NCBI RefSeq assembly: GCF_000012645.1 | Contig: NC_007577.1 | Location: 1,178,001-1,242,000, forward strand | DNA length: 64,000 nucleotides | Source: Prochlorococcus marinus str. MIT 9312 | GTDB lineage: Bacteria > Cyanobacteriota > Cyanobacteriia > PCC-6307 > Cyanobiaceae | Direction of reading: 5' to 3' | Shown here: positions 3,364 to 64,000 of the stretch, piece after piece | Layout of the letters: every line of letters begins with the position of its first letter | Numbering within the stretch: position 1 is the stretch's first letter | Position numbers and translations under genes: made by a program | Notes under the pieces: generated by a model | Told to the model about the DNA's origin: nothing | Databases searched by the model: none | What the model saw: the letters and a program-made list of their open reading frames with translations, nothing else

Positions 3364-4422
3364 CTATTTTTGTGTAATTTTTGCGTTTTCCATATTGTCA
3401 AAAGCTTGACCAATTTTCTTAAAGTCAAACCCCATAGCTCTTAGAGCATGCCATAAATGACCTTGCAAGAAAAAGAATCCCAAATAGAAATGAGCATTTG
3501 CAAGCCAAGCTCTTGCACTATATACGCCAGAACCTAAGTCAACTGTGTCCGTAAAATAAGGAGCGAACTCAAATTGAAGCTTTAATGGCTCTCCATATAA
3601 ATCAACTGGGTATATTGTTGTGTTTGAAGCACACCAGAATGCCGCGACAAAGGCCATATAGGAAACGCCTACTACTGAGTAAGACAAAATAGCTTCAGCA
3701 CCTAGTAACCCTTTACCTTTAAATTCTGTATATTCTCCAAATTGCTTAGTAAAAATGTGGAAAATTCCGCCAATTATTTCTAAAAAGGCTAGAAATGCAT
3801 GACCTCCCAGAACATCTTCTAGACTATCTATTTTTAAAAAATCAAATTGATGATTCCAAATAGCAGCAATATCCAAGTTGTAAATTACTTGTCTTGTTGA
3901 ACCAATTGCAGGGTCATAGATCCCATGCCATTTAGCCCATTCCACGAACCAAATAGCTCCTATACCTAAGAAGATTAGATGATGGCCAAGAATGAAAGTT
4001 AATTTATCTGGATCATCCCATTCAAAATCGAATTTTCTTGGCTTACTGGTTTCAGAATAATCTGCAAGATCCCCGGCAAATTTGGTGGAATGTAATAATC
4101 CTCCAGCACCCAATACAGCAGAAAAAATTAGATGCAATGTGCAAATTACAACAATTCCATATGTTTCAGTAATAACTCCATTTTCAATACCACCTATCCC
4201 AAGACCTGCGAGGTGAGGTAAACAAATTAATTTTTGAGCACCCATTGGAATACTGGCATCGTAACGAGCTAATTCAAATAATCCAAAAGCACCTGCCCAA
4301 AACATCATAAGTCCTGCATGAGCAGCGTGAGAAGCTATGAATTTACCTGAACGGCCAACAACACCAGAATTTCCTGCGTACCAGTCATAGGTGACATCAG
4401 ATTTTCCGTAAGTTTGTAACAC
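3364..4422 (-). CDS. pcb: Pcb/IsiA-family chlorophyll-binding antenna protein
   Basis: A 352-residue thylakoid protein of the CP43-like Pcb/IsiA family, which binds (divinyl) chlorophylls and feeds energy to the photosystems. The N-terminus (MLQTYG...TYDWYAGN) and the segment with CASNTTIYPVDLYG and FAPYFTDT are diagnostic. Six membrane spans can be seen, with His pairs suited to chlorophyll ligation (SHAAHAG, LGHHLIF, HFYLGFFFLQGHLWHALRA). The start is GTG at 4422. The 145-base gap from the flavodoxin gene upstream holds no obvious terminator, so isiB and pcb may form an iron-stress operon, as with isiAB in other cyanobacteria. It differs from the standard PcbA N-terminus I remember (MQTYGNPDVTYGWWAGN), so it may be a secondary, stress-type Pcb. 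That subtype is inferred. Confidence 0.93.
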   Translation of the reverse strand: MLQTYGKSDVTYDWYAGNSGVVGRSGKFIASHAAHAGLMMFWAGAFGLFELARYDASIPMGAQKLICLPHLAGLGIGGIENGVITETYGIVVICTLHLIFSAVLGAGGLLHSTKFAGDLADYSETSKPRKFDFEWDDPDKLTFILGHHLIFLGIGAIWFVEWAKWHGIYDPAIGSTRQVIYNLDIAAIWNHQFDFLKIDSLEDVLGGHAFLAFLEIIGGIFHIFTKQFGEYTEFKGKGLLGAEAILSYSVVGVSYMAFVAAFWCASNTTIYPVDLYGEPLKLQFEFAPYFTDTVDLGSGVYSARAWLANAHFYLGFFFLQGHLWHALRAMGFDFKKIGQAFDNMENAKITQK

Positions 4423-38417: not shown

Positions 38418-39737
38418 TTAGCCAATATTCTCTTTAAATATTTTAAAGTTTCTTTGATTGGCTTGCAAATAATTGCAAAATGCATAAATACAAAATGATA
38501 GAATTGCAAAATGAATAGAAAAATTATCAACTAAAAAAATTATAAAAAGTAAGCCTAAAGAAAGAATTGATGAGAGTATTTCAATTTTAACAATATTAAT
38601 ATTATCAGTTAAAGCAAAAGCAAATGGTTGTGATAATTGATAAGCACCTAAAAATCCGTAAGCTAAAAAAGCCATAAAAAGATCAATAGAGCTAATTGTG
38701 AATGGATAAAAATTCAAATTATTTTTAAATACTAATTTTAATAATATTAAAATAAAAGGGATTAGTATTGATAAATAGATAAGATTTAAAGATAATTTTC
38801 TAGTTTTTTGATAAGCTATTTTTTTTTCATTTATTGCCTTATTACTTATATATGGATAGAAAGTAAATCCAACAAATGCTGTTAAAGATAATAGAGTTGC
38901 TCCTGCTGAAATAGCTAAAGAAAGCTGCCCTACTCCATCTAATCCCATATTTGAAAGTGTAATACTTCTAAGAAGGAAAAAGAATAATGAAGCTGTTAAG
39001 GTTGCGAAAACAGACTTTCTTGAAAGTGAAAACAGACTCTGCAAATAAGGCTTGGGACTAAAAAATAAACTTAAATTTAAATTTTTTCTTATTAAGAAAA
39101 TAATTTTAAAACTATAATATCTATATAAAAATAAAATGATAGTTATACATGAAATGATAAATGTTATCGAATATAAATTTATTATTAGATTAATATCATT
39201 TTTTATAATGCCTACAAATGCAAAAATACGTGGCAAGATTCTTAGAATTAAAATATAGTTTGCAAAACTAAAATTCTTTATACTTCTATATGTATAAAGA
39301 ACAAATTCTAATAATAATTCCGAGAATCCTATAATTAGAATCAATATAAAAATATTTAAATTCAAAACATTATTGAATAAAATATTTGATACGAAGTCCT
39401 TAAAAAAAAGTAAAAATATAGAAATAATTAGTCCAGTTAATAATATAAATAAAGCTGACTTAAAAATAAATTCATATTTTTCCTCTGAATTATTTATTCT
39501 TGGAACTATAGCTATGATTCCATTAGGTATATTGAAGCCTACTAAAGAGGTAAAAAGAGATACCGAAAACATTACCTGAGACCAAAAGCCAATATCTTTA
39601 TAAGAGAGAATGCTTGCCATTAATGCTGTCATTAAAAAACTTATAATTTTTTCAATTATTAATAGGGATCTACTTATTAGCGTCTTATTAAAATAAGAAT
39701 TAAATATAAAATTATTATTTCTAAGATTTTCTTTCAT
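38418..39737 (-). CDS. wzx: Polysaccharide flippase (Wzx, MOP superfamily)
   Basis: A 439-residue membrane protein with about twelve hydrophobic helices, with the Wzx/RfbX style of polar residues between them (NIPNGIIAIVPRINNSEEKY, SRKSVFATLTASLFF). It probably flips the lipid-linked repeat unit to the periplasmic face. No other flippase is in the window. A 110-base AT-rich divergent gap separates it from the methyltransferase gene. The family fits by topology and composition, not by a short diagnostic motif. Confidence 0.82.
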   Translation of the reverse strand: MKENLRNNNFIFNSYFNKTLISRSLLIIEKIISFLMTALMASILSYKDIGFWSQVMFSVSLFTSLVGFNIPNGIIAIVPRINNSEEKYEFIFKSALFILLTGLIISIFLLFFKDFVSNILFNNVLNLNIFILILIIGFSELLLEFVLYTYRSIKNFSFANYILILRILPRIFAFVGIIKNDINLIINLYSITFIISCITIILFLYRYYSFKIIFLIRKNLNLSLFFSPKPYLQSLFSLSRKSVFATLTASLFFFLLRSITLSNMGLDGVGQLSLAISAGATLLSLTAFVGFTFYPYISNKAINEKKIAYQKTRKLSLNLIYLSILIPFILILLKLVFKNNLNFYPFTISSIDLFMAFLAYGFLGAYQLSQPFAFALTDNINIVKIEILSSILSLGLLFIIFLVDNFSIHFAILSFCIYAFCNYLQANQRNFKIFKENIG

Positions 39738-52041: not shown

Positions 52042-53412
52042 ATGAGAACCAATTTACAGAAATTAATTATTTATGAATTAAATGAAGTGCCAATAAAGGT
52101 TCTTAAAAAATACATAAAAATTTTTCCTCATTCAAATTTTGCATATATTTGCAAAAAAGGGGTTCTCAAAAATACTTACACTACAGATGATGGAGAATTA
52201 CACCCTTGGAGTACTTGGCCAACAGTTCACAGAGGAGTTAATAATAAAATTCATAATATCAGATTTATAAATCAAAATTTAAATAGTGCAAAAAAATGGC
52301 CTCCAATTTGGGAAGTCCTAATCGAAAATGAAAAATCAATAGGTATTTTTGGTTCGTTACAATCATATCCGCCCATTAAAAATAGATTTGTATCTTTTTA
52401 TTTACCTGATACTTTTGCTCCAGATATAGATGCTTATCCAAAAGTTCTAGAAATATTCCAAGATTTTAATTTAAGTTTAACTGAGAAAAATAAAGCCATC
52501 TCAAGAACTATCTCTTCTAAAGAAATATATAAGTTTCTGAAATTAATTGTTTTAGGAACATTTAGATTTAAAACAATACTAAAAGTTTTTAATCAAGTCA
52601 TTTATGAAATTTTTGATAAAAGAAATAAAACCCTGAGATCCCTTCTTCAACCTATTTTAGGTTTCGATATTTATATAAAGATGCTTGAAAAGAAGAAACC
52701 TGAATTCAGTACTTTTTTTACTAATCATGTGGCAGGCATAATGCATAGATATTGGCGATATACATTCCCAGAGGATTTCGGAGATAAAATAAATAATGAT
52801 AATTTCCACTTGGAATCAATTAATAAAGCTATGCATATTGCAGATAATCAAATTGGGGAATTAATTAAATTTAGTAAGTCTCACAATTACGATTTATGGA
52901 TCTTAAGTAGCATGGGTCAAGAAGCAATAAAAAGGGAAGATGATTTTCCTGAGATTTATGTTGGAAGTATTGGGAAAATTATTAAAGCTATTGGCCTAAA
53001 TCAAAAACACTATCAATTATTACCTGCCATGCAACCTGATTTATGTATTAATTGTAAAGATAAAAAATCCAAAACAAAACTTTTGGAAAATTTAAAACAA
53101 ATAAAAGATAAAAATGGAAAATTGATTTTTATACCTAGATATGTCAACGATGGAAATTCTATAAATATTTCTATCAAACACTCTTATCATGCATTTAAAA
53201 CAAAAAAGTTTTTTATAAAAGGTGAAACTTTTACAGCAAAAGATTTAGACATAGAGTTCGTTAAAAGAGATATAGGAACTGGTTACCATTGTAGAGAAGG
53301 AATTTTTATTTGTTACGGTAAAAAAAGTAATGATATATTTAAATCATATGGTTCAAAAAATATTAATACAAAAGATTTCTTTAATAAGGTAAAGAGATAT
53401 TTTGAAATTTAA
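52042..53412 (+). CDS. Alkaline-phosphatase-fold (phosphodiesterase-like) protein
   Basis: A 456-residue protein that looks like a distant member of the nucleotide pyrophosphatase/phosphodiesterase branch of the alkaline phosphatase superfamily. WSTWPTVHRGVN (about residues 53-64) matches the T-x-H-G nucleophile loop. FFTNHVAGIMHRYWRYTFP and the late YHCREGIFICYG correspond to later conserved blocks. Metal-binding positions look altered: YELNEVP replaces the usual aspartate, and LWILSSMGQEAI stands where S-D-H-G is expected. It may have lost hydrolase activity or changed metals. It might transfer phospho-groups to a glycan. The 3' end overlaps the convergent WecA-like gene by 32 bases. Confidence 0.55.
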   Translation: MRTNLQKLIIYELNEVPIKVLKKYIKIFPHSNFAYICKKGVLKNTYTTDDGELHPWSTWPTVHRGVNNKIHNIRFINQNLNSAKKWPPIWEVLIENEKSIGIFGSLQSYPPIKNRFVSFYLPDTFAPDIDAYPKVLEIFQDFNLSLTEKNKAISRTISSKEIYKFLKLIVLGTFRFKTILKVFNQVIYEIFDKRNKTLRSLLQPILGFDIYIKMLEKKKPEFSTFFTNHVAGIMHRYWRYTFPEDFGDKINNDNFHLESINKAMHIADNQIGELIKFSKSHNYDLWILSSMGQEAIKREDDFPEIYVGSIGKIIKAIGLNQKHYQLLPAMQPDLCINCKDKKSKTKLLENLKQIKDKNGKLIFIPRYVNDGNSINISIKHSYHAFKTKKFFIKGETFTAKDLDIEFVKRDIGTGYHCREGIFICYGKKSNDIFKSYGSKNINTKDFFNKVKRYFEI

Positions 53413-55667: not shown

Positions 55668-56411
55668 ATGAGCATTTCTGAGGCTAGAGTTATAATTACA
55701 ACTTGTAATGAATATTCCGAATTATTAGAAACATTAATATATTCCTATAACAAACATTGGCCTGATAGAGAATGGCCCTTAACTATTGCTTCAGATTACC
55801 TAGATAATGGCCAAAAATTCAAAACAAATATTGATGTTTTTACACACAAAAACATTTACTGGTCAAATATATTAATAAATTGTCTAAAAAATTATAAGGA
55901 GGATATTATTCTTCTTGCATTAGATGACTTTATTTTGCAAGACAAAGTTAATAATCAACTCTTATACAGCTTAGTACTAAATATGAAAAGAAATGCAGAT
56001 ATAAATTATCTTAGATTAGTTCCAAGGCCAAAGCCTAAATATAAATCTATGGCTGTATTTTCAAAGCTTTCAGAAAAAGAACCTTATAGATTATCTCTTC
56101 AAGCTTCACTATGGCGAAAAAGCTTTTTAGTTGAATTATTAGTTTGTAATGAATCTCCTTGGCAATTTGAAATTGAAGGTAATAAAAGATCAAAAAAATA
56201 TTTAGGATTTTATAGTTCATCATTAGATTTATTTCCTTATAAGCATCATGTTATCCAAAGAGGCAAATGGTTCCCATGGAGCTTCTATAAACTTAAATTA
56301 AGAAATTACCCAATTAACTTAAGAAAAAGGAAAATTATGAATTTATTTGAATCATTTAAATGGTTATTACACAAAATACTTAGCAAAATAAAAGTTTTTA
56401 TAAATAGTTAA
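55668..56411 (+). CDS. Glycan-locus protein, glycosyltransferase-like
   Basis: A 247-residue soluble protein. ARVIITTCNEYSELLETLIYSYNKHWPDREWP at the start and DIILLALDDFILQDKVNNQLL (with Asp-Asp) resemble the GT-A family's donor loop and D-x-D motif. The C-terminus is basic (LRNYPINLRKRKIM) and may bind membrane. A family name is not evident to me, but similar proteins occur in capsule and O-antigen loci. ATG 55668 is chosen over a TTG at 55653. Its stop overlaps the next gene's start by one base. Confidence 0.6.
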   Translation: MSISEARVIITTCNEYSELLETLIYSYNKHWPDREWPLTIASDYLDNGQKFKTNIDVFTHKNIYWSNILINCLKNYKEDIILLALDDFILQDKVNNQLLYSLVLNMKRNADINYLRLVPRPKPKYKSMAVFSKLSEKEPYRLSLQASLWRKSFLVELLVCNESPWQFEIEGNKRSKKYLGFYSSSLDLFPYKHHVIQRGKWFPWSFYKLKLRNYPINLRKRKIMNLFESFKWLLHKILSKIKVFINS

Positions 56412-57592
56412 TGAATAAGCAAAACTTGTTAATATCCATATTTGTTATCTTACTAAGCTTAACAGATACAAACATTATTCCTTTATTTAGTATAAGTGAT
56501 TGCTGTATTCTATTTTTTTTAATAATAATTTTTTATAGAAAAGCATCAATTATTCCAAAGCAATCAATCATATTTACTTTTGTCGCAATAATTGGACTTT
56601 TCACTGGAATAATAAGTAACAATCCTATTCAATATAAATCCTTTTATGCATCAGTCTTCACAGCGAATTCAATAGGTTTATTTTCAAAAACTAATTATAA
56701 ATTTTCTAATAAAATTGATATTAATAAAGTTATAAATTACGTATTAATTATTCTTTCTTTTTTTACCATATTAGATTTTATAGCGATAATTCTTTTTAAA
56801 AATTCTCTTAATTTTTCATTACTTTATGGGATAGACCCAAAAACTTGGGCTGGATATACAGTTTCTGGTGAGGGGATAATAAGGCCGACCGGAATATATG
56901 CTGAGCCTGGTGACAACACTTCTATAATTGTAATTTTCTTATCATTAAAGTTATATTTTAATAATCAATTTAAAATCAAAGATTTATCTTCTAAAAATAT
57001 ACCTCTGTTACTAGGAATGTTTTCAATAATGATAAGCAGATCAAATCAAGGAACGCTCGCATTAGTTTTAATATTAATCTTTATGATTATTGAAAATCTA
57101 ATTAAAAATAAATTTTTTGTAAAGCTTTTTAAAAGATTTACTATAAGTTTTTATAGATTGAAGAAGAAAAATATTTTTTCTTCGTTAATCATTCTGACAA
57201 CTATTACCATCTCAATTTTATACACATTGCCAAGAGTAATCGGTATTTTCAATAGATTTGGAAGCATAGACTTTACAAGAGCTTTCACTATTGCTCAAGT
57301 TTTTAACCCTGAAAGAGGTCTTTTATCATTAATTCTTGGTACTAGTTTTGAAATACCAGATTTATTAATAAATTCATTAACGCAATTTATAAATCTTTTT
57401 TACCAATTTGGCATCCTTTCCTTTATTCTTTTCTATTTTATGTTTAAACCTGCAATAAAACATTCAGGCAGATTATTTTTATTCTTATTAATGGTTTTCT
57501 TAAGTAAGTTTAATATTTCTACAATACCTTTTTGGTTATCAATTTATTTTTGCGAAAAAGAATATAATAAAAAAATTTTAAATAAGACTTAA
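56411..57592 (+). CDS. Wzy-like polysaccharide polymerase
   Basis: A 393-residue membrane protein with ten or so hydrophobic helices and few polar stretches, the pattern of O-antigen polymerases. The large periplasmic loops hold RPTGIYAEPGDNTSIIVI, where Arg, Glu and Pro match those of Wzy-like proteins (R-x-x-G-x-F-x-E-P-G). The gene is coupled to the preceding one and sits among glycosyltransferase genes. It could polymerise repeat units or be a ligase. Together with the protein at 25774-27078 it is the second candidate in the window. Confidence 0.72.
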   Translation: MNKQNLLISIFVILLSLTDTNIIPLFSISDCCILFFLIIIFYRKASIIPKQSIIFTFVAIIGLFTGIISNNPIQYKSFYASVFTANSIGLFSKTNYKFSNKIDINKVINYVLIILSFFTILDFIAIILFKNSLNFSLLYGIDPKTWAGYTVSGEGIIRPTGIYAEPGDNTSIIVIFLSLKLYFNNQFKIKDLSSKNIPLLLGMFSIMISRSNQGTLALVLILIFMIIENLIKNKFFVKLFKRFTISFYRLKKKNIFSSLIILTTITISILYTLPRVIGIFNRFGSIDFTRAFTIAQVFNPERGLLSLILGTSFEIPDLLINSLTQFINLFYQFGILSFILFYFMFKPAIKHSGRLFLFLLMVFLSKFNISTIPFWLSIYFCEKEYNKKILNKT

Positions 57593-60770: not shown

Positions 60771-62066
60771 ATGGATATTAAATTAAAGGGAAAAGAACTT
60801 AATTTAAAATTAATATATAAAAATAAAAAAATTACATTCGACGAACTTTTCAATACGAAAAAAAGACAATTTAATTTTGAGCTAAATCTAAATGACAATT
60901 TCTATAAAGGTAAAGGTATTAGGGGAGATGATTCAATTTTTATACCATTCTCAAAAGAAATGGGAGTTAAAATTACTAAAGAAAAGCCTCAAAGAGATGA
61001 TTCTATTAAAGAGGCTTTGGAAATGACAACTCTTATAATGAAGAATAATATTGAGATATTTCCTAAAATATTTAGTACAGAATTAGTTGAGAATGAATCC
61101 AAAGAAACGTTTTTGATTACTTTTATGGAGAACATAATAAATAAGAATATTTTCAAAATTTTTCTTAAAAGATATAACTCAATAAAAAACTTTGTCCCCC
61201 TTAGAGATTTACCTTACTTAATTAAGAATCTAAATATTTATCCTTATTTTCTTGATAAATTCTATTATTTTATGGAGGAATATAACTTATTTCCTGAAGA
61301 CGAATGGTATAAAAAAACCAATCTTATAAATAATAAAATAGTTGACTTTTCTAGATTTAAAATCTTAAAAGAAAGATATCATTTCCCCTCAAATAAAAAA
61401 ACAAAAGCAGAATTATTAGAAGAATATTATAAACTTAAGAACATATTTGCCAAGAATTTTAACTCTGAATACATCCCTCAATGGAAAGGTAGCTTATATG
61501 AGGGATTTAAGTTCGATAATGGATTTATAATGGAAGGCTATAAATCTGATCATTATAGGTTTGACTGTTATAAAAAATTACCTTTTATACCTTTTAATAA
61601 AATAAAAAATAAGTCTGTACTAGATATTGGATCTAATCATGGTTTTTTTAGTTTTCAATCAATAATTCATGGTGCAAAAAATGTAGTTGCTATAGAACTT
61701 GATAGTAAGAATATTAAAGTTGCAGAGAAATTAAAAGAATTAATGAATATAAGAAATATAGAATTTATTAATCAAGACGTAACTAATTACTTATTTGAAA
61801 CCAATAATAATTTTGAATTGATTATTATGAATTCAGTATTACATCAAATTTATAAGAATTATAAAGGTGCGGATAATTTTCTAAAACAAATATCGAATAA
61901 ATGTAATTATTTTGTATTTGAAACACCAGTTAATCATCCTACAGTAAATATAAAGTTATCATCAATACATAAAAAGTTACGTAAATATTTTTCAACAGTT
62001 AGAGTACAAAATATTTACAAAGCTTATTCAGCTGGATACCGAGCTATTTATATTTGTTATAAGTAA
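60771..62066 (+). CDS. Kinase-like domain fused to a SAM methyltransferase
   Basis: A 431-residue two-part protein. The C-terminal third is a class I methyltransferase (SVLDIGSNHGFFSFQSIIHGAKNVVAIEL, about residues 282-310, then FELIIMNSVLHQIY). The N-terminal half has a protein-kinase or APH-like order: MGVKIT (Lys68, the beta-3 position), helix C around E81, hinge-like FLITFMENI (114-122), then EWYKKTNLINNKIVDFSRFK (178-197), which recalls the N-x(7)-D-F catalytic/metal loop. In WbdD a methyltransferase fused to a kinase ends O-antigen growth; the domain order here is reversed. The methyltransferase is firm; the kinase-like domain is a by-eye inference. Confidence 0.78.
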   Translation: MDIKLKGKELNLKLIYKNKKITFDELFNTKKRQFNFELNLNDNFYKGKGIRGDDSIFIPFSKEMGVKITKEKPQRDDSIKEALEMTTLIMKNNIEIFPKIFSTELVENESKETFLITFMENIINKNIFKIFLKRYNSIKNFVPLRDLPYLIKNLNIYPYFLDKFYYFMEEYNLFPEDEWYKKTNLINNKIVDFSRFKILKERYHFPSNKKTKAELLEEYYKLKNIFAKNFNSEYIPQWKGSLYEGFKFDNGFIMEGYKSDHYRFDCYKKLPFIPFNKIKNKSVLDIGSNHGFFSFQSIIHGAKNVVAIELDSKNIKVAEKLKELMNIRNIEFINQDVTNYLFETNNNFELIIMNSVLHQIYKNYKGADNFLKQISNKCNYFVFETPVNHPTVNIKLSSIHKKLRKYFSTVRVQNIYKAYSAGYRAIYICYK

Positions 62067-62987
62067 ATGGATTACAAAAATTACTTCCTAAATTGTAGAG
62101 AATCATATAAAAACAAAAAACCTTATCTTTCTTCATTTTATGAAAATCCAGTAAGGGTAATTCCTCATAATTTCTTTACTAAGGAAACGAAAGATTACTT
62201 ATTAGATTTGTCTAAAAATATCAAAAGAGAGTTTGATACAGGTAAACATAAATTAGGTAATATTAGTGGCATTAAAAACTTTTGGCCTTATGCATTACCT
62301 ATAAATAAAACTTGTGAACAATTAATCCCATATTTAGAAGAGACATTTTATGGTTGTAATCTATTTGTAGATAAAGTTTATATTTACAGAACCCAAAAAA
62401 TTGAAATAAAAAAAGATTCTTATCTTTGGCATCATGATAATAATCCAAATGAAATAATTAAAATAATAATTTATTTAAATGAGGTAAATCAATTTAATTC
62501 CCCATTTGAGTATTTAGCAGATGAAAATAATCGAGGAATGTTAGCAAAATGTACGAGACTAGGTCCAAATAATTGGGAGCCTGCTCCAAATGATGGAAGA
62601 CTTGAAGATGAAGTAAAAAATTTAATAAAATATAAAAATTGTTCGGGTAAAAAGTTAATTGGTAAGCAATTTACTGCTTGCGCCTTTTCAAATAACTCTA
62701 TTCATAGAGTTAACCCTATTATCAAAGGATACAGAGATGTTTTGAACATAAGAGTAAAACCTACAATTTCAAAACCTAGTATTTACTTAAGTAAAAAATG
62801 GACATCGAGTTTCGGAGTATCTGGAGCTGTAGATCCAGATCCTGAAAAAGATTGGCAATACTATAATAAAAAATCAAACTTAAGATTATTAAAGGAAATA
62901 TATTTAAATATTCTTCTAAAAAAATTAAAAAACAAAATTAAGATTATTAAAGGAAATATATTTAAATATTTTTTTAAAAATATTTAA
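62067..62987 (+). CDS. 2-oxoglutarate/Fe(II) oxygenase-like protein
   Basis: A 306-residue protein whose core looks like a double-stranded beta-helix dioxygenase. H122-H123-D124 in LWHHDNNP gives the H-x-D iron pair, H213 in NNSIHRVNP the distal His, and R223 or R229 in RDVLNIRVKP a likely 2-oxoglutarate anchor. Strand KIIIYLNEVNQFNSPFEYL fits the fold. It probably hydroxylates a sugar or lipid, but the substrate is unknown. The ATG immediately follows the methyltransferase stop. The last 35 residues are Lys-rich and lie over a near-tandem duplication that shifts the frame. Confidence 0.72.
   Translation: MDYKNYFLNCRESYKNKKPYLSSFYENPVRVIPHNFFTKETKDYLLDLSKNIKREFDTGKHKLGNISGIKNFWPYALPINKTCEQLIPYLEETFYGCNLFVDKVYIYRTQKIEIKKDSYLWHHDNNPNEIIKIIIYLNEVNQFNSPFEYLADENNRGMLAKCTRLGPNNWEPAPNDGRLEDEVKNLIKYKNCSGKKLIGKQFTACAFSNNSIHRVNPIIKGYRDVLNIRVKPTISKPSIYLSKKWTSSFGVSGAVDPDPEKDWQYYNKKSNLRLLKEIYLNILLKKLKNKIKIIKGNIFKYFFKNI
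62880..62970 (+). repeat. 58-base tandem duplication at the end of the oxygenase gene
   Basis: The same 33 bases occur at 62880-62912 and 62938-62970, offset by 58. The sequence after each copy is also similar (A/T-rich, with AAAAAAATT or AAAAATATT). Because 58 is not a multiple of three, the second copy is read in another frame, giving the two basic stretches LLKEIYLNIL and IIKGNIFKYF. The duplication therefore rebuilt the C-terminus. Confidence 0.8.
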
Positions 62988-63057: not shown

Positions 63058-64000
63058 ATGCCTAAAGTAGCTCTATGTATTTCTGGAAAGATAGGCAATG
63101 TTGCGGGAAAAACAAATTTCAATAAATCTGATACAAGAATTTTAAAAAAAGCTTATGAGCTATATAAACTTCACATTATAGATAAAAATGATGTTGACAT
63201 TTTTGTTCACTGTTGGGATGTAGAATTTGAACAGGAAATAAGAGAACTTTTTGCACCAAAAGGTTACATAATTGAAAAACAAAGAAAATTTAAAATTCCA
63301 AATTATGTAAAAGGGAGCGATAGACCTTGGAAAAGAAAAGAAGCAATGATAAGAAAACAAAGTCATTACAGTAAATGGTATTCAATTAAAGCTGTAAATG
63401 AACTAAGAAAGGATTATGAAATAAAGAATAAATTTAAATATGATTTTGTAATGACAACAAGATTTGATATTGCATTTATGAAAGATTTAATTTTTAAAGA
63501 TTTTGATAATCAATTTTTCTATGCTGCTAATTGGACTGCTTTTGTAGATAAAAATGGAGAGGATAGATTTAAAGGAGGTAAGGGCGACTTTTATGATCTC
63601 ATAAAAAGAAAAGATCCTGAACTTCAAAAGTTGAACAAAGTAAACTTAGGTTACCCTAATGATCAAAATGGTCTACTAGATTTTTGGTTTTTTACAAATT
63701 CTGAATATGCGAACAAATTTTTTGATTTATATGATCACTTAGATAATTATCTTAAGGAAGGAAATTGTCCACCGAGCAATGACAAAGCTAAAGTAATTTC
63801 TAATCATCAATTATCTCTATATCATTTGCAGAAATTAAACCTTATTACAAAATTAAAATTTGCCTTTGAACTTTATGATGATTTTCCACTAATAAGAAGA
63901 AAATACTTCGAAGAAAGAATGATTCAAAAGAATAATAAATCTAAATTATCAAATATTAAAAAATCAATAAAGTCTTTCTTAAAATTTCTATCAAGAAATT
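63058..64000 (+). CDS. Glycan-locus protein of unknown family, open at the window's right edge
   Basis: The frame from ATG 63058 runs to the window edge (314 codons). It begins MPKVALCISGKIGNVAGKTN, has DIFVHCWDVEFEQEI, and FKYDFVMTTRFDIAFMKDL, where R-F-D resembles the donor-binding motif of some glycosyltransferases of surface-glycan loci. A basic C-terminal segment (KSIKSFLKFLS) starts near the edge. The promoter is in the 70-base gap upstream. I would call it a probable glycosyltransferase, not a certain one. The end may be just past the window. Confidence 0.65.
   Translation, partial: MPKVALCISGKIGNVAGKTNFNKSDTRILKKAYELYKLHIIDKNDVDIFVHCWDVEFEQEIRELFAPKGYIIEKQRKFKIPNYVKGSDRPWKRKEAMIRKQSHYSKWYSIKAVNELRKDYEIKNKFKYDFVMTTRFDIAFMKDLIFKDFDNQFFYAANWTAFVDKNGEDRFKGGKGDFYDLIKRKDPELQKLNKVNLGYPNDQNGLLDFWFFTNSEYANKFFDLYDHLDNYLKEGNCPPSNDKAKVISNHQLSLYHLQKLNLITKLKFAFELYDDFPLIRRKYFEERMIQKNNKSKLSNIKKSIKSFLKFLSRN

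Follow-up and report, generated by a model that had tools for sequence, protein, structure and literature searches.

A putative sugar-modifying kinase-like and methyltransferase fusion of Prochlorococcus marinus with homologues in a conserved marine viral cassette

The gene at positions 60771-62066 of the window (the whole stretch of 64,000 nucleotides analysed here, from Prochlorococcus marinus str. MIT 9312) is a single open reading frame that begins with ATG, fills this span exactly and encodes 431 amino acids plus a stop codon; the following gene starts right after this stop, with its ATG at 62067. The source genome is a single contig of 1.71 Mb; GC content across the window is 24-36%, and a CP43/Pcb-type antenna gene lies at 3364-4422. 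The initial annotation had described a kinase-like region followed by a methyltransferase, and both halves were recovered by Foldseek and Pfam, with a predicted kinase-like fold N-terminally and a SAM methyltransferase C-terminally. The AlphaFold model of the full fusion has a pLDDT of 86 and a pTM of 0.86. The methyltransferase forms the C-terminal end of the protein, the longest predicted helix has 16 residues, and no hydrophobic 19-mer occurs in the protein sequence. The fusion gene, its parts and the two genes that follow it are:

60771..62066, plus strand: whole fusion gene (431 aa), with the kinase-like domain ahead of a class I SAM methyltransferase
60771..60896, plus strand: N-terminal extension of beta strands that precedes the kinase-like lobe, residues 1-42 (DSSP of the models; boundary placed from predicted strands)
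60897..61385, plus strand: kinase-like domain, residues 43-205, with G/D-rich loop GKGIRGDD, K67 strand, alpha-C 79-92, beta4-beta5, short C-lobe, N184 and D192
60969..60971, plus strand: K67 codon (beta3 Lys), invariant in the alignment
61305..61307, plus strand: W179 codon, invariant; in an ungapped KxxN register this residue falls where the HRD Asp would be
61320..61322, plus strand: N184 codon (catalytic-loop Asn equivalent), invariant
61344..61346, plus strand: D192 codon (DFG Asp equivalent), invariant
61386..61562, plus strand: linker, residues 206-264, in which W-K-G-x-[IL]-Y-[QE]-G is conserved (from the alignment), with a weak likeness to the NoeA linker
61563..62063, plus strand: class I SAM-dependent methyltransferase, residues 265-431, with motif I at 283-296, H358 and R424
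62067..62987, plus strand: 2OG-Fe(II)-oxygenase-like gene; H122-x-D124, the distal H213 and R223 are invariant in seven members, and the Pfam match is only weak (0.029)
63058..64000, plus strand: glycosyltransferase-like gene running past the window end, its function suggested by context; its family also occurs in viral cassettes, and it has no match in Pfam

That the methyltransferase is clear, as had been claimed, is borne out by a Methyltransf_31 match in Pfam over residues 279-388 (E 5e-11). Both class I motif I (VLDIGSNHGFFSFQ, residues 283-296) and a Rossmann-like fold are present, as indicated by Pfam and by the fold matches of the full model, the top ones of which are methyltransferases, CmoB and WbdD among them. 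For the methyltransferase part (METHYLTRANSFERASE), the best PDB match of the family profile is WbdD (E 3e-8), and HHalign of the methyltransferase against WbdD gave an E of 1.5e-12 over 106 columns at 27% identity. The WbdD sequence was taken from E. coli HS (P0003), and its catalytic residue numbers all agree with those of the published protein (PMC3482155). H358 and R424 align with the phosphate-binding H132 and R203 of WbdD; we dropped this pair as support for phosphate methylation because CmoB and kinase-free methyltransferases share the same Arg, so that the alignment is no proof of that activity.

Residues 1-205 matched nothing in Pfam and gave no useful match by sequence in the PDB, and neither database yielded a sequence-level match of the N-terminal half to any kinase; HHalign of the N-terminal profile against the WbdD kinase also detected no similarity. 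Modelled alone with AlphaFold (pLDDT 81, pTM 0.73), this half has strands, an alpha-C helix at residues 79-92, beta4-beta5 and a short helical C-lobe, so arranged that the predicted N-lobe sheet bears the beta3 Lys and is followed by alpha-C, a hinge and a C-lobe containing the Asn and a DFG-type Asp. Individual scores are weak (best Foldseek E 1.3e-3, TM 0.3-0.4). A kinase or APH-like fold, on which the initial annotation had staked its reading of this region, is nevertheless what structure prediction and Foldseek return, since the best 50 matches in the PDB are protein-kinase-fold proteins only; WbdD occupies ranks 5 and 7, and APH(2'') rank 26. A search of BFVD, a viral library, with the same model gave mostly giant-virus protein kinases. 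As a class, the predicted kinase-like fold has good support, with no single match strong.

To examine residues in this half we used an alignment of nine divergent homologous sequences, counting residues 1-226 and leaving out Met1. Fourteen of the 226 columns are invariant: D54, G65, K67, F97, P98, P175, W179, K181, N184, D192, F193, F196, R202 and Y203. K67, N184 and D192, the putative ATP/Mg-type residues of a kinase, are thus invariant in nine rows, and the same residues are found in a tenth homologue, from Azospirillum. The chance that three positions named in advance would all be invariant is about 2e-4. For the two named in the initial annotation it is about 4e-3, and these are conserved beyond chance; D192 had been numbered correctly, and the "Lys68" of GVKI is K67. 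The FLITFMENI and NLINNKIVDF blocks, to which attention had been drawn, both occur in the translation; the supposed hinge residue, Glu120, is not invariant. No alpha-C Glu is conserved in the alignment, and none could be assigned.

The catalytic loop of kinases reads D-x-K-x-x-N. In the fusion it reads W179-x-K181-x-x-N184, which in an ungapped register puts an invariant Trp at the position of the HRD Asp. An acidic residue lies within positions 176-178 in 10 of 10 sequences, one to three positions early, and none is at the canonical spacing. In two viral members the stretch from K181 to N184 is lengthened by an insert of 5 residues, and the spacing from N184 to D192 is 8 residues as compared to 13 in WbdD (N356, D369). 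Judging from the aligned sequences, the catalytic-loop Asp is missing or displaced in the fusion family. Because W179 stands where the HRD Asp would be and that Asp is not assignable, phosphoryl transfer by the N-terminal half is no more than plausible.

Full-length homologues of the fusion are present in eight IMG/VR marine viral contigs (33-40% identity) and on an Azospirillum thermophilum plasmid (WP_109334351.1, P0002; about 28% identity). The plasmid protein resembles the fusion in retaining the K, N and D residues and in having an acylneuraminate cytidylyltransferase in its cluster, and differs from it in its shorter N-terminal domain and its neighbours; it is annotated as a class I methyltransferase only. 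One viral contig (154.9 kb) encodes the T4 gp23 capsid and gp19 tail-tube proteins. These T4 capsid and tail-tube families were not found in the other seven contigs and may lie outside those fragments, and the viral label of those seven is that of IMG/VR itself. A second full-length copy was found neither in about 98-99 related genomes, nor among a further 385 genomes from the phylum, nor in 398 genomes of the order, and contig scans of genomes with the single fusion protein and with a two-row alignment gave no matches.

The viral copies lie in a shared genomic setting. The window and seven of the eight viral loci have the fusion and the oxygenase-like gene side by side; the eighth locus has a partial copy elsewhere. 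Common to the viral loci are two NeuB-type synthases (one with a cupin), a cytidylyltransferase, an MptE-like domain and glycosyltransferases, together with a nucleotidyltransferase-APH fusion, a protein that looks TIM-barrel-like by eye, a HAD protein and a cupin. The marine viral contigs L045, L046, L047, L048, L049, L050, L051 and L052 share the long NeuB/cytidylyltransferase/MptE-like/glycosyltransferase cassette, an indication that the viruses themselves may encode the synthesis of an acidic sugar. On the cyanobacterial chromosome, too, many cassette genes have homologues, which lie at most 17 kb downstream of the window. They comprise nucleotidyltransferase-APH, TIM-barrel-like, cupin, SnoaL-like, HAD, NeuB-cupin, cytidylyltransferase and glycosyltransferase-like genes. 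The same region of the host contains genes resembling those for a GDP-heptose pathway, an ABC exporter and sulfotransferases, the first and last of these assignments having been made by eye. In the literature that was searched, no description of this cassette was found, and the presence of full-length homologues within one conserved marine viral cassette is what is new here.

Taking the neighbourhood and the domains together, we tentatively favor a reading, which we rate as somewhat short of probable, in which the fusion is a cytoplasmic two-domain enzyme that modifies a sugar of a nonulosonate-type (NeuB/CMP-transferase) pathway for surface glycans, a pathway shared with marine viruses, its kinase-like half phosphorylating the same sugar that the other half methylates. 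The methyltransferase half would transfer a methyl group from SAM to the sugar, and the N-terminal half would bind ATP, most likely via K67, N184 and D192, and phosphorylate it. Together they may turn a presumed nonulosonate-type substrate into a methyl-phosphorylated sugar, and the oxygenase-like neighbor is likely to act on the same intermediate or on one next to it. Against a sugar kinase stand the weak fold matches, the HRD Asp that cannot be assigned, the unconserved alpha-C Glu and the 8-residue spacing of N184 and D192. Fusions of a kinase with a methyltransferase cap bacterial glycans with methyl-phosphate, and two methyltransferase-first kinds are proven; the family described here would be a further, sequence-distinct kind in which the kinase-like part comes first and which travels in a whole sugar-synthesis cassette in a cyanobacterium and on viral contigs. 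Its product, if known, would indicate which sugar the viruses make and whether the surface of the infected cell is altered, which bears on phage-host recognition in the ocean.

The same evidence leaves room for a serious rival that we consider doubtful, namely that the N-terminal half is a pseudokinase that holds a sugar or nucleotide without transferring a phosphoryl group, making the protein a plain sugar O-methyltransferase. The replaced or displaced HRD Asp, the lack of a conserved alpha-C Glu, the short C-lobe and the variable length of the K181-N184 loop are all consistent with a pseudokinase. K67, N184 and D192, however, would be expected to drift in a pseudokinase and stay invariant, and the acidic residue always present at 176-178 is a candidate base. 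An extended form of the sugar-modifier reading, in which the N-terminal half is an active kinase with a rebuilt loop (no HRD Asp, an invariant Trp) and the kinase-first fusion yields a methyl-phosphorylated nonulosonate-type sugar, the pathway being carried by marine T4-like phages and cyanobacteria and serving host-surface remodelling or virion decoration, is unlikely when taken as a whole.

The initial annotation held that a terminator of this reversed domain order would be new. The order itself is already that of the NoeA/Lani_1194 family, published in 2022 with about 2,000 homologues and linked to how secreted glycolipids or envelope glycans are decorated; Lcin_0519 represents another kinase-methyltransferase family (PMC9758233). 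NoeA on pSymA (L061:14285-15715, P0004; annotated noeA in other strains) has a kinase motif, LSDATAYN...FIDH, and then a methyltransferase. The fusion could be a divergent NoeA/Lani_1194 member that modifies a secreted glycolipid or envelope glycan, and the shared order of domains, together with HHalign matches of the methyltransferase plus preceding linker to NoeA (E 4e-8 to 6e-8), argues for such kinship. The kinase parts, in contrast, could not be aligned (E 0.5 over 16 columns in the wrong region, against a four-member NoeA profile), and 100 column shuffles included a few that scored as well as the linker alone, so that its likeness is only suggestive. NoeA also has a regular D-x4-N loop, which the fusion family lacks, and its usual partner is NoeB, of the sulfatase/alkaline-phosphatase fold, whereas the fusion adjoins a 2OG-oxygenase-like gene. 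We regard membership in the NoeA/Lani_1194 family as improbable, and on present sequence comparisons the fusion family is a new and distinct variant of the kinase-methyltransferase fusion. A 456-aa protein encoded at window positions 52042-53412 (plus strand) looks vaguely alkaline-phosphatase-like by eye and has one relative (36%) on a Sphingomonas plasmid; as an equivalent of NoeB it was rejected, having no match in Pfam or the PDB.

WbdD of E. coli O9/O9a likewise combines kinase-fold and SAM-methyltransferase domains in one protein, although in the order methyltransferase-kinase, within 708 aa, with a coiled-coil ruler, beside Wzm/Wzt and with D351/N356/D369 intact, where the fusion has equivalents of the N and D and W179 at the position of the Asp (ungapped). 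The Klebsiella O7 ORF6 terminator (PMC11231755) shares with the fusion a methyltransferase and a kinase domain missed by sequence search, and differs in its methyltransferase-first order, its APH/AmiN-like kinase with a demonstrated catalytic D441, its coiled coil and its ABC-transporter pathway. The fusion had been proposed as a glycan chain terminator of the WbdD type, capping the non-reducing end of the O-chain with methyl-phosphate and thereby setting chain length. We consider this very improbable: WbdD is the closest PDB entry to the methyltransferase profile and is among the N-terminal fold matches, but no helix is long enough for a coiled-coil ruler, and the viral copies are located in a sugar-synthesis cassette. 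No Wzt_C was found across the genome, whose only ABC2-membrane protein lies about 0.8 Mb from the fusion, and the cluster is of the Wzx/Wzy/Wzz type, with a Wzx-like gene at 38418-39737, a Wzy-like membrane protein at 56411-57592, initiating transferases and, about 32 kb downstream, a Wzz-domain protein; there is therefore no sign of the ABC-transporter pathway used by WbdD-type terminators.

Just beyond the window, the nucleotidyltransferase-APH-type kinase fusion of the host (1022-2602 of L057, minus strand, equivalent to window positions 64021-65601) has an intact HGDLHFEN motif. Its viral homologues are at L036:8430-10016 and L046:10763-12340, and a marine virus record derived from a SAG, MH319741, contains a nucleotidyltransferase-APH fusion with 37% identity. 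A conserved protein containing IGPMSKNIVD, without a Pfam match and perhaps a TIM-barrel enzyme of the cassette, is encoded at L036:10009-11004 and L057:3449-4468. Two genes at L057 18445-19930, sulfotransferase-like by eye and pointing to a sulfated surface glycan, lie near the NeuB-cupin and cytidylyltransferase-HAD genes, and they are resembled by genes in viral locus L035 (8431-10100).
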